A stretch of 64,000 nucleotides of DNA, taken from positions 62,001 through 126,000 of the forward strand of contig PBMB01000012.1 in the NCBI GenBank assembly GCA_002722455.1. Direction: 5' to 3'. Source of the stretch: Chloroflexota bacterium (GTDB lineage: Bacteria; Chloroflexota; Dehalococcoidia; Lucifugimonadales; GCA-2722455). The notes under the pieces are model-generated. The model was not told the DNA's origin. It did no database searches and saw nothing but the letters and a program-made list of their open reading frames with translations. This document shows positions 11,870 to 52,095 of the stretch, in pieces (within the stretch, counting starts at the first letter, position 1; each line of letters starts with the position of its first letter). Position numbers and translations under genes: made by a program.

Positions 11870-12289
11870 ATGAAAGTTACATTTACTAATGGTTTATCTA
11901 TCAAAACAACTGAACACCCAGAAGATTGCAATTTTATCGATTTTGAAAACGAATTTGGCACTTATTTGATTTCTGCTTCTGTGTTTACTGATTTAAAAGA
12001 GTTTTCTGATACTTGGAAAGATTTAGCTAAAAAAATGAATCTAGAAATTGTCACAAGTGAAAACTATGATTCAGAATATGTTCTTCAAGTTGGAGACATT
12101 CAGATGTTGTTTGATACTGAAGCTTCATACGTTCGAGTTTCAGAAACTCAACATAAAGAAGAATTTGAAGGTTCTTATTGGACAGTTGATGAGTTTGTAG
12201 AAGCACCAATGGAAGTATTAGGAGCTTTGGCAGGTTCATTATTTAGTAATGTTAACTCTCGACGATTTGTTGAAGAAATTATTGAATAA
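11870..12289 (+). CDS. hypothetical protein, tandem paralog of 12299-12691
   Basis: MKVTFTNGLSIKTTEHPED...EYVLQVGDIQMLFDTEASYVRVSE. Confidence 0.7.
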   Translation: MKVTFTNGLSIKTTEHPEDCNFIDFENEFGTYLISASVFTDLKEFSDTWKDLAKKMNLEIVTSENYDSEYVLQVGDIQMLFDTEASYVRVSETQHKEEFEGSYWTVDEFVEAPMEVLGALAGSLFSNVNSRRFVEEIIE

Positions 12290-12298
12290 GGTTTTATT

Positions 12299-12691
12299 AT
12301 GAAAGTTGTTTTTGCCAATGGCACTGCTGCAGAGTTTGCAGAATACCCCTTAGACGTTGATCGTCTTACTTTACATACAAAAGATTCTGCATTTACTTTT
12401 ATTCACAATAAAATGGATAATACTGACTTTTTTCGAAAAGCTGTTGAATCCCTAGAAATGAAAGAACGTTTAACTGTTAATGACGGAACTGAATATGTTC
12501 TTGTTATGGATGATCTCGTTTTACGCATTGGTAAAAATTATGATTATATTCGAGTCACTTCAAAGCTTGAAGATGATATGTTTATGGCAAGCATTAGTGA
12601 TTTTACAACTATTGAATCAAGTATCAAGTCTTTAAATCGTCTTGCTTATTTGATTAATATTCATTGTTTTGAATATTTAGAAAATTATTAA
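12299..12691 (+). CDS. hypothetical protein, tandem paralog of 11870-12289
   Basis: MKVVFANGTAAEFAEYPLD...EYVLVMDDLVLRIGKNYDYIRVTS. Confidence 0.7.
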   Translation: MKVVFANGTAAEFAEYPLDVDRLTLHTKDSAFTFIHNKMDNTDFFRKAVESLEMKERLTVNDGTEYVLVMDDLVLRIGKNYDYIRVTSKLEDDMFMASISDFTTIESSIKSLNRLAYLINIHCFEYLENY

Positions 12692-12700
12692 GTTTTTATA

Positions 12701-12729
12701 TTGACAAACGCATGGTAAAAAGATATAAT
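12701..12729 (+). promoter_or_regulatory. consensus sigma70 promoter
   Basis: TTGACA (12701-12706), 17 bp, TATAAT (12724-12729). Confidence 0.85.
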
Positions 12730-12735
12730 AACTAA

Positions 12736-12950
12736 AAAATAAGGTTTCGCTGAACAACTCAGACAGACGCTAGTACCGCCATACATTGTATGAGAAAAAC
12801 TTGTAAAAACCCTTTTGGGTATAGACAAGTGCCTTGTTTAATACTTGTCATTTCGGTGGCAAAGCTTAGAGAGTTTAGAAATGGGTTTGGCTCTAATGCT
12901 TGATACGACAAACTATTAGAAAAGAGAAGCCTTAGTGCTTCTCTTTTTGC
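12736..12950 (+). ncRNA. Candidate stand-alone structured small RNA
   Basis: Consensus promoter upstream, terminator AGAGAAGC-CTTAGT-GCTTCTCTTTTT at the end, no ORF in the track, several hairpins inside. Confidence 0.8.
12923..12948 (+). terminator. rho-independent terminator of small RNA
   Basis: AGAGAAGCCTTAGTGCTTCTCTTTTT. Confidence 0.85.
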
Positions 12951-13004
12951 TTTAGTTTAATTTATTTTTATGTTATAATTATTCTTTATTTTTCAAGGTT
13001 TTTT

Positions 13005-13856
13005 ATGTATCTAAAATTATTAAATATTAATGAATTAGAACGTGGTAGATATGCTTTAATTAACTACGATAATTTCATGGAACAAATAAATATTGAAATC
13101 ACAAGTGTTGGTATTAATCAAATAGATGATAACGGAAAAATAATCATTTATGATATAGGAACTGAAATACTTGATCTGTATACGCATTTTTATCGTTGGA
13201 GAAAAGGTCTTGATCTTTTTAATACATCTATTACATATGAAAAATATATTGAAATTACAAAGCTAAAAAATATAAAAAACCCAACTTACCAAATTTTAGA
13301 TACAAAAGGGACAAAACTTCTAATTTACAAAAACAACAAAGGTAATGTTGTTTTTGATTTAAAGAAAAATGACATTCTAACCCTTAAAAAAGGTTCGGGT
13401 TGGAATGCTGTTAAGATGAAAAAAAAACATATATCTTTTGATAACACTATTGAGTTAAACGTTGAGGATTTACGTGCATTAAAACCTTTATTAACTAGAT
13501 TTGCCAAAACATTAATTTATGTGTCAAAATATGATGTCGAACTTATTGATGTCAATGGAAAAACCATTTTTATTTATCGATCTTCTGTTGCTACTGAATT
13601 TCGATTATGGTTTAGGATAAAAGATTCAATTATAAAATTTAAAAATATAGATTTTTCTTGTAATTCTTTTCTAGAACAGATATCACAAAAAGAATATACT
13701 CATTTAATTGATGACTACCCTTTAATTCAAAATGCCTCTAGTATTTTATTTCCAGATTCAATAGAAATTAATGGTTTTCATGCAAGAGCAATATTAAGAA
13801 TATTAGATTTGTTAAATGTTTACTCAGAAGAAAAATCTTTTTACCTAGATATATAA
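13005..13856 (+). CDS. hypothetical protein
   Basis: 283-aa ORF. Confidence 0.7.
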   Translation: MYLKLLNINELERGRYALINYDNFMEQINIEITSVGINQIDDNGKIIIYDIGTEILDLYTHFYRWRKGLDLFNTSITYEKYIEITKLKNIKNPTYQILDTKGTKLLIYKNNKGNVVFDLKKNDILTLKKGSGWNAVKMKKKHISFDNTIELNVEDLRALKPLLTRFAKTLIYVSKYDVELIDVNGKTIFIYRSSVATEFRLWFRIKDSIIKFKNIDFSCNSFLEQISQKEYTHLIDDYPLIQNASSILFPDSIEINGFHARAILRILDLLNVYSEEKSFYLDI

Positions 13857-27293: not shown

Positions 27294-28466
27294 ATGAAAA
27301 CAGAACAAATTAATGATCTCAAATTTGATCCAAAAGAATTATTCAATCAACTAATGAACCTTATGGATCTTGAAGACAGGCCTTTCTTTTTTGAAGATAC
27401 CAAAATTAATGAAGAATATTCTTATCGTGTATTCTGTTACAATATCCCTGGTTATATGCAATATCAACTACCATTTGCTCGTGAGACACGAGGTAGTATG
27501 TTCTTAATTAAGAACGACACAAAGGAATTTGTTTCTCTTGTTGTATTGCCTATGCCTAAGTTTTTTACCTATGGAGAACAGCCTGAAACCGAAAAGCTTG
27601 ACCTATCAAAAGTAAAGCGATTCACTTTAAAAATTGATGGTAGTCTTGTTAGTTCTTATATTGATTTCAATGGCGATCTTGCATTTAAAACAAAACGTAG
27701 CCCTAGCCAAGATAGCTTTAATGAATTAATTGAGTCAGTACTTTATCCTGAATTAAAAGAAGAACTTAAAGAGCTTACAAAAACTCACACAGTAGATTGT
27801 GAACTTACCTCACCTACAAATCGTGTTATTCTCGAATATAAAGATACCAATCTTTCTGTTCTAAAGGTTCGCTCTCGTGAAACTGGATTATTTGAAGAAA
27901 TCCATTCAGAAGAATTTAAAAATAAATATCCACATATCGCCAAAATCATTGTTGAAGAACTTGATATTGGATTGCTTGAGGGTCTTAGTAAGAAAAATAA
28001 CAATATTGACTGTAAAGGTATTGAAGGTGGCGTTGTTGAGATGCCTGACGGCACACTTGCTAAAATTAAAACTCGATATTATCTAACACAAAATCGTTTT
28101 GCTAACTTACAAGACTTTAAAAAACGTAATCGTTTAATGGTTGAAGCTTGCATCGAAGAAACTTTTGACGAACTAAGAACGTTATTCTTCTATCGCAAAC
28201 GTAGTGAAAACTATAATGCAGAAGGTATTGTTGCTGATATGGATAGTATTGAAAAGCAAGTTCGTGAGCTTTACAACCCTTTGTATTCTAAAATCATGGA
28301 TTTTTATAATGAGAATAAAGAACTTTCATTGGAAGAATATACCGAAAAAGCAAAAGAAGAGAAAATGCATGAATATATGTCTCTTTTGATTCCACTCCAT
28401 AAAGGTTTGAAAGTAAATATTAAAGCTTTCTTCCTTAAAAAATATGGGAATAAAATTCGAGCATAA
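27294..28466 (+). CDS. T4 Rnl1-like RNA ligase
   Basis: FTLKIDGSLVSSYIDFNGDLAFKTK (KxDGS motif I), VDCELTSPTNRVILEY, GIEGGVVEMPDGTLAKIKTRYYL. Confidence 0.85.
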   Translation: MKTEQINDLKFDPKELFNQLMNLMDLEDRPFFFEDTKINEEYSYRVFCYNIPGYMQYQLPFARETRGSMFLIKNDTKEFVSLVVLPMPKFFTYGEQPETEKLDLSKVKRFTLKIDGSLVSSYIDFNGDLAFKTKRSPSQDSFNELIESVLYPELKEELKELTKTHTVDCELTSPTNRVILEYKDTNLSVLKVRSRETGLFEEIHSEEFKNKYPHIAKIIVEELDIGLLEGLSKKNNNIDCKGIEGGVVEMPDGTLAKIKTRYYLTQNRFANLQDFKKRNRLMVEACIEETFDELRTLFFYRKRSENYNAEGIVADMDSIEKQVRELYNPLYSKIMDFYNENKELSLEEYTEKAKEEKMHEYMSLLIPLHKGLKVNIKAFFLKKYGNKIRA

Positions 28467-38998: not shown

Positions 38999-39059
38999 AC
39001 TTTACTTTTAAAGTCGTATGCTTTATAATATATCAAATTTTAAAGAAAAGGTTAAGACA

Positions 39060-39755
39060 ATGAGTGTTGAATCACATGAAATTTGTACCAAATACCCTCG
39101 AACGTATCATTTGTATTGGTCTAAGGGTGTAGGTTCAGATGATAAAATTAAAAAAGACTTAAGTAACTTCGAAGGTAAAGTCGTTGTTGTTACTGAAAAA
39201 CTTGACGGTGAAAATACGACAATGTATCCACGTTATGATCTAACTGGAATGCATGCTCGTTCTTTTGACGGTGCTTTTGATTGGACTCGTGAATGGGTTC
39301 GTTCTGTTCAGATTGCTATTGTTGAACTGATTAAAGGCTATCGAGTTTGCGGTGAAAACATGACTGCCATTCATTCCATTACTTATGACGATCTGGTTAG
39401 CTTCTTTTATATCTTTTCTATTTGGGACGAAGAAACCAATATGTGCTTATCTTGGGAAGATACTGTAGCATTTGCCGAAAAATTAGATATTCCTACACCT
39501 AAAGTGCTTTATCATGGTGTTTGGGACGAAGAACTGTTCAAGCAAATGTTTGAAGATATGGATACAGAAAAGATGGAGGGTTATACTATTCGTCTTGCTG
39601 ATAGCTTCCATTACGACGATTTTTCAAATTGTCTTGTTAAGGCTGTTCGTGAAGGTCACGTACAAACTGACGAACATTGGCGAAAAGATGCGAAACCTGC
39701 TTCATTATCAACAGATAAGCGAATAATGCCTTCTTTTATGGATAAAACGAAGTAA
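39060..39755 (+). CDS. RNA ligase family protein
   Basis: VVVTEKLDGENTTMYP (KxDGEN), GENMTAIHSITYD, FYIFSIWDEETNMCLSWEDTV, EGYTIRLADSF. Confidence 0.85.
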   Translation: MSVESHEICTKYPRTYHLYWSKGVGSDDKIKKDLSNFEGKVVVVTEKLDGENTTMYPRYDLTGMHARSFDGAFDWTREWVRSVQIAIVELIKGYRVCGENMTAIHSITYDDLVSFFYIFSIWDEETNMCLSWEDTVAFAEKLDIPTPKVLYHGVWDEELFKQMFEDMDTEKMEGYTIRLADSFHYDDFSNCLVKAVREGHVQTDEHWRKDAKPASLSTDKRIMPSFMDKTK

Positions 39756-51285: not shown

Positions 51286-51438
51286 AACTCTTCGAGAGAA
51301 GACTAGCTTTAGTGTCCACAATGACACATTATTAAAGCGAAGATTTTATACAGATTCATAAGTCTGTGTATTATCCAACGGTGGGGCTACCTGGATTCGA
51401 AAACATTTAACCCATAAAAATCGTTGGAGAATCAAATT
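51286..51438 (+). promoter_or_regulatory. Structured, RBS-sequestering leader of RNA ligase gene
   Basis: TCCAACG(51374-51380)/CGTTGGA(51422-51428) covers the GGAG RBS; upstream hairpins CTCTTCGAGAG, TGTC-CACAAT-GACA, ACAGA-TTCATAAG-TCTGT; loop contains GGGGCTACCTGGATTCGA. Confidence 0.7.
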
Positions 51439-52095
51439 ATGAAAAAAATCAGCACTGTATTTATTATTAACCGTGAAACTAACCTTGCAACTGCAGACGT
51501 ATTGAAAGGCAATGAATGGGTAGTAAATGGTGAAGGCTTGGCTACTGTGAAGTTTGATGGTAGTTCTTGTTTAATTAAGGACGGAGTTTTATTTCGTCGT
51601 TGGAACAGAAAGCTAACTAAAAAAGCAATGAAAAGTAAAAGTTTCGCTGCTCGTAAAGGTTTAGAATTCATTCCTGACGAAAGTATGTTTAGACCCGTTC
51701 CAGAAGGTGCAATAAAATGTAATGAAACTTTTGACGCAAAAACTCTACACTGGCCACATTGGGTTCCTGTAGGTGAAGATCCAGCAGATCTTTTACACGT
51801 TGAAGCTTTTGAAGCACTAAAAGCAGAAGGTAAAGTAGAAGACGGGACTTTTGAGATTTGTGGACCGAAAATTCGTTGCAACCCACACAACTTCGATAGC
51901 CACGTATTGCTTAAGCATGGTGACGTTGTTGTTGAAGTGGAAGATCGCAGCCTTGAAGGTATTCGTGCTTTCTTAGAAGGCTTTGACGGTGAAGGTCTTG
52001 TATTCCACCATCCTGATGGTCGCATGGCAAAGGTCCGATGCAAGGACCTTAACATTGCTTGGAATGAAGAAGCTGACCCACGAGATAAGCGATAA
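51439..52095 (+). CDS. RNA ligase (DUF5565/Rnl-like nucleotidyltransferase)
   Basis: ATVKFDGSSCLIKDGVLFRRWNRK (KxDGSS), TFEICGPKIRCN, DGEGLVFHHPDGRMAKVRCKDLNIAW. Confidence 0.85.
   Translation: MKKISTVFIINRETNLATADVLKGNEWVVNGEGLATVKFDGSSCLIKDGVLFRRWNRKLTKKAMKSKSFAARKGLEFIPDESMFRPVPEGAIKCNETFDAKTLHWPHWVPVGEDPADLLHVEAFEALKAEGKVEDGTFEICGPKIRCNPHNFDSHVLLKHGDVVVEVEDRSLEGIRAFLEGFDGEGLVFHHPDGRMAKVRCKDLNIAWNEEADPRDKR

Follow-up and report, generated by a model that had tools for sequence, protein, structure and literature searches.

A candidate orphan small RNA gene with a consensus promoter and an intrinsic terminator on a low-GC contig of a Chloroflexota assembly

Introduction

The described systems that come closest to the locus considered here are the trans-acting sRNAs of the ProQ/FinO class encoded in intergenic regions of proteobacteria, the sRNAs derived from 3' UTRs by way of an internal promoter, and the bacterial Y RNAs, which are the partners of Ro60 proteins. 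For most of the top ligands of ProQ, A-U pairing below the terminator stem has been described (PMC12001967), and the length and GC content of intergenic regions form a published criterion for finding unknown ncRNAs (PMC6429828).

The locus lies on contig C12 of an assembly assigned to the Chloroflexota, in a stretch of 64,000 nucleotides that was analysed as a whole and is called the window below; positions are those of the window unless a contig is named. We give a probability of about 0.42 to the reading that the locus is an autonomous regulatory sRNA gene, ProQ being left aside in this figure. Its gene-like signals are real, and the object itself, an orphan sRNA candidate, is of an ordinary kind in an interesting genome. 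The features on which the argument draws are collected in Table 1.

Table 1. Features of the candidate sRNA locus and its flanks, in window coordinates
Feature	Position	Strand	Remarks
Two upstream paralogous small genes	11870..12691	+	24% identity; no Pfam family above cut-off
Sigma-70 promoter, perfect TTGACA-17-TATAAT	12701..12729	+	12/12 consensus match, 17-nt spacer
Presumed ~212-nt untranslated RNA	12737..12948	+	start inferred from -10 box, end from terminator
5' domain: stem 12737-12745/12831-12839; hairpins CTGA/TCAG, CATAC/GTATG, ACTTGT/ACAAGT with inner ACCC/GGGT	12737..12850	+	z -2.3
37-codon ATG frame, probably untranslated	12790..12903	+	non-coding codon usage
Alternative hairpin GACAAGT/ACTTGTC	12824..12849	+	sequence present; ~3% of modelled ensemble
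Intrinsic terminator, 12-bp stem, A-U-extended base, loop CTTAGT, U5	12919..12948	+	
Extended -10 TGTTATAAT, likely separate promoter of gene 13005	12971..12979	+	read from sequence
Downstream gene, function unassigned	13005..13856	+	no Pfam family above cut-off

A promoter-to-terminator unit of unusual composition

Two marks of a stand-alone sRNA gene, a promoter of its own and an intrinsic terminator, are both present at the level of the sequence. An initial annotation had named a perfect promoter and a clean terminator with a CTTAGT loop; both were recovered as described, and all 13 elements that were checked (TTGACA, TATAAT, hairpin arms and terminator) lie where that annotation had placed them. 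Perfect promoters, defined as TTGACA and TATAAT separated by 16-18 nt, number 16 on the low-GC contigs of the assembly (1.11 Mb), as against a mean of 2.6 (range 0-6) in ten dinucleotide-preserving shuffles. This enrichment of ~6-fold is seen on contigs of the low-GC class, where nearly all of the other perfect promoters stand immediately 5' of an ORF; the higher-GC contigs hold 1, as against 1-5 in five shuffles. The presumed transcript has 37.7% GC, compared with a mean of ~25.6% for intergenic windows of these contigs, and this value is reached by 4% of the 212-nt windows in intergenic gaps. The gap that contains it (31.3% GC, mean of gaps 22.9%) ranks 13th among the 248 gaps that hold no tRNAs. 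Because of the promoter enrichment, the position of such promoters before ORFs and the GC richness, it is probable that a real, separate non-coding transcript is made from the locus; given such a transcript, the odds would tip slightly towards a regulatory sRNA.

The stretch might instead be the 3' UTR of a two-gene operon formed by the upstream paralogs, in which case its promoter would be a chance match or would yield a 3'-UTR-derived RNA that has no role of its own. The second of the two genes (12299-12691) ends with its stop codon 9 nt short of the -35 box, and the pair probably shares the terminator of the RNA, since none intervenes between these genes and the RNA before 12919. The 3' UTR reading also gains from the near-chance fold of the RNA minus its terminator and from the ~2.6 perfect promoters expected by chance on the low-GC contigs. 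However, the 16 that were observed exceed this expectation, and the stretch is GC-rich for intergenic DNA; we regard this reading as unlikely.

Relation to the downstream gene

The ATG of gene 13005 follows the end of the terminator by 56 nt on the same strand, which puts the terminator in the usual place of an attenuator, so that the RNA could be read as a 5' leader in which the terminator decides on read-through into the gene. This reading is rather improbable. Gene 13005 has an apparent extended -10 of its own after the terminator, and this arrangement recurs on the contig, which speaks for the RNA as a separate unit and against a leader. Moreover, the modelled minimum-energy fold contains the terminator, no strong antiterminator is apparent, and no Rfam riboswitch or leader scored above threshold.

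Terminators similar to that of the RNA are found elsewhere in the assembly, for example at C2:20536 and C12:50568. At two places on the contig (window 12919-12979 and C12:50568-50625), a terminator of this kind, followed by TTTAGT and TGTTATAAT, precedes a gene, the two genes being unrelated, as if a terminator-promoter module had been duplicated ahead of both. The gene at the second place is coaD/coaE-like: a single frame of 378 aa (C12:50647-51783) matches coaD over residues 8-167 and then dephospho-CoA kinase over residues 174-347, an apparent CoaD-CoaE fusion.

Search for relatives

No Rfam family matched the RNA at gathering thresholds, and at E<=10 the matches were sub-threshold, at chance level, and confined to the terminator region. 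RF00013 (6S RNA) had no match anywhere in the assembly. These results agree with the view taken in the initial annotation, that the RNA is not 6S, tmRNA, RNase P or a known riboswitch. Searches with blastn against phages and plasmids returned short partial matches, mostly to the upstream gene or the AT-rich flank, and exact matches were found neither for a 24-mer in GTDB genomes nor for a 19-mer in IMG/VR. An nhmmer search over the whole assembly and the fetched loci recovered the RNA itself and nothing else, as did a DNA search of 250 genomes of the order. The outcome was the same with a covariance model whose seed was a single sequence entered twice, and thus only slightly more sensitive than a sequence search, when it was run against the assembly, 247 genomes of the order, 43 loci with a similar TrpS and 30 genomes with such genes (best match other than itself, E 0.66). 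Nor did the neighboring genes serve as handles: searches of viral contigs, plasmids and the order returned no relatives of gene 13005, and a search of phages none of gene 12299. Overall, no relative of the RNA was found in ~280 whole genomes, and with zero homologs the searches could yield no sign of selection or covariation. The taxonomic relatives of the assembly may be the wrong relatives for such a search, because its contigs split into two GC classes and the window belongs to the low-GC class.

Predicted folding and coding potential

The RNA had been described as structured, a claim that proves weak. The whole RNA folds with a z of about -2.2 to -2.3 relative to shuffles; once the terminator is removed, z is -0.75 and 113 of 500 shuffles fold equally well, and in these models the folding signal appears to come mainly from the terminator. 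Only the 5' domain is modestly better than chance (10 of 500 shuffles fold equally well), and its signal is to be taken as only modest because six sub-ranges were tried. In the best predicted fold, the 9-bp stem of this domain, which the initial annotation had overlooked, is stacked on the ACTTGT/ACAAGT hairpin, and the main helices of the domain have modelled pair probabilities of 0.8-1.0. Two further helices, TTAGAG/CTCTAA and CCGCC/GGTGG, make up ~33% and ~3% of the modelled ensemble, respectively. A resemblance of the GGTGG motif to a T-box was considered and dropped.

The proposal of a stand-alone small RNA is supported as regards the gene, by its perfect promoter and its terminator, by a GC content raised above that of intergenic DNA, by codon usage of a non-coding kind and by the apparent separate promoter of gene 13005, but not as regards the two competing hairpins that were thought to make the RNA bistable. 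Of 300 shuffles, 127 contain one or more conflicting pairs of helices that are 6 bp or longer, which places the competing hairpins at chance level, and the alternative fold is predicted to be less stable than the preferred one by 2.0-2.2 kcal/mol and to be populated at ~3%. Bistability is possible, yet the models give no indication of it. In a genuine two-state switch, the 5' end AAAUAAGG would pair with CCUUGUUU in one state and be freed by GACAAGU/ACUUGUC in the other. Both helices are perfect in sequence, the energy gap is within model error and the 5' domain is modestly above shuffles; such a switch is nevertheless very unlikely in view of how often helices of such length conflict in shuffles, the low population of the alternative and the lack of homologs for comparison. 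Slimmer still are the chances of the broader proposal, in which the locus would represent a new structured regulatory RNA class, confined to an undescribed AT-rich lineage, with the AAAUAAGG/CCUUGUUU pairing and GACAAGU/ACUUGUC as the arms of a real two-state switch.

The statement that the unit contains no ORF fails literally, since there is one ATG frame of 37 codons, but it holds in substance: the codon score of this sole frame is 0.02, below the 0.107 that marks the 5th percentile of real 37-codon gene pieces, and resembles that of shifted frames, so that the frame looks non-coding and the presumed transcript has no coding signal. A short mRNA for a 37-aa product is accordingly the least likely of the readings. 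In support of it, the frame is uninterrupted, has an ATG start and falls within the promoter-to-terminator unit; against it stand this codon score, the lack of a Shine-Dalgarno motif directly before the ATG and the position of the ATG inside a predicted hairpin.

Proposed mode of action

If the locus is an autonomous sRNA gene, the sigma-70 promoter would start an untranslated transcript of ~212 nt, which would end at an intrinsic terminator probably held in common with the upstream operon, while gene 13005 would be driven by its own promoter. The RNA would most likely be trans-acting and base-pair with mRNAs; a FinO/ProQ-domain protein may stabilise it by binding to the terminator, in which an A-rich 5' side is expected to pair with the U tail. 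A gene for such a protein (C21:44912-45217; PF04352 match above cut-off) is found on a contig of the same low-GC class, and C12 and C21 are likely to come from one cell. For Hfq, no PF17209 match was found in the assembly, a weak result because the bin is incomplete. The A-U-extended terminator is compatible with the ProQ type of ligand, though such bases are often to be expected in AT-rich DNA. Given a separate transcript with a regulatory role, a place among the clients of ProQ is a tentative suggestion.

Across 2503 start regions, target prediction gave pairing no better than that of shuffled RNAs, and the anti-Shine-Dalgarno-like CCUUGUUU picked out no distinctive target set among them. 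This result counts against the sRNA reading, as do the zero homologs and the near-shuffle fold of the RNA without its terminator.

Genomic setting

The contigs of the assembly are bimodal in GC content, and C12 belongs to a low-GC class (C1, C2, C11, C12, C15, C21, C22 and C25) of 1.1 Mb and 26-30% GC. This class carries more than 90 tRNAs and a permuted tmRNA, together with its own DnaK, DNA polymerase III alpha (DnaE), SmpB and FtsH, which are distinct from the copies on other contigs. Matches to 16S and rpoB were found on the higher-GC contigs and on none of the low-GC ones. The TrpS encoded in the window shares up to 70% identity with proteins of Photobacterium and Vibrio. The low-GC contigs may represent part of the genome of a second bacterium, binned together with the first, or else an extrachromosomal element of very large size; Pfam lent no support to a giant phage or to a conjugation system on these contigs.

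Several other RNA-related features were observed on the low-GC contigs. Arrays of like tRNAs occupy C1:72117-116643, with ten consecutive tRNA-Glu, nine consecutive tRNA-Leu and further clusters in which tRNA-Asp and tRNA-Ala are frequent. In the window, a span of 25 kb contains three different RNA ligase genes (27294-28466, 39018-39755 and 51424-52095), representing the T4 RNA ligase 1-type PF09511, PF09414 and the RLIG1-type PF17720; the last was probably acquired recently, because it sits in a stretch of ~50% GC. At C21:47804-48735, a stretch of ~930 nt has a perfect promoter, a strong terminator and no ORF of at least 60 aa on its strand, and folds at an MFE of -227 kcal/mol (z -3.2; 0 of 20 shuffles as good). 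It is present in a single copy, and searches found no Rfam, plasmid or real phage match and no homologs. As a candidate large structured orphan RNA, it is more striking than the RNA at 12737-12948.

If transcribed, the latter would enlarge the repertoire of a little-known, RNA-rich lineage by one orphan sRNA; other traits of this kind in the lineage are the FinO/ProQ protein, a Ro60-type protein, the several RNA ligases, the arrays of like tRNAs and the ~930-nt orphan RNA. Routine when taken alone, the RNA serves as a marker that points to a genome possibly holding unknown RNA classes.

Comparison with known systems

Bacterial Y RNAs come to mind because contig C12 also encodes a TROVE/Ro60-type protein (C12:149733-151340). 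This gene, however, is ~75 kb away from the RNA and is itself directly preceded by another non-coding stretch that runs from a promoter to a terminator; in addition, the predicted 5' stem of the RNA closes on 12831-12839 and not on the 3' end, and no Rfam Y RNA matched. A role as Y RNA was rejected on the ground that this other stretch adjoins the Ro60-type gene. In the region in question (C12:149396-151340), a perfect promoter precedes the gene of the Ro60-type protein (PF05731, E 2.7e-12), and 5' of the gene lie a separate promoter-like site, ~200 nt of non-coding sequence and a strong terminator, with no match in Rfam; the ~200-nt stretch is a candidate Y RNA partner.

With 3'-UTR-derived sRNAs that have an internal promoter, the RNA shares a position directly behind a gene and an end at that gene's probable terminator; it differs in that its promoter lies 3' of the stop codon, so that the two share zero coding sequence. 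From the ProQ/FinO-class trans-acting sRNAs in intergenic regions of proteobacteria, it is set apart in having no sequence relative and no target among the start regions examined, and in that its binding by a protein is only proposed. What it has in common with them is a promoter of its own, an A-U-extended intrinsic terminator, the lack of a coding signal and the presence of a FinO/ProQ-domain gene in the same assembly.
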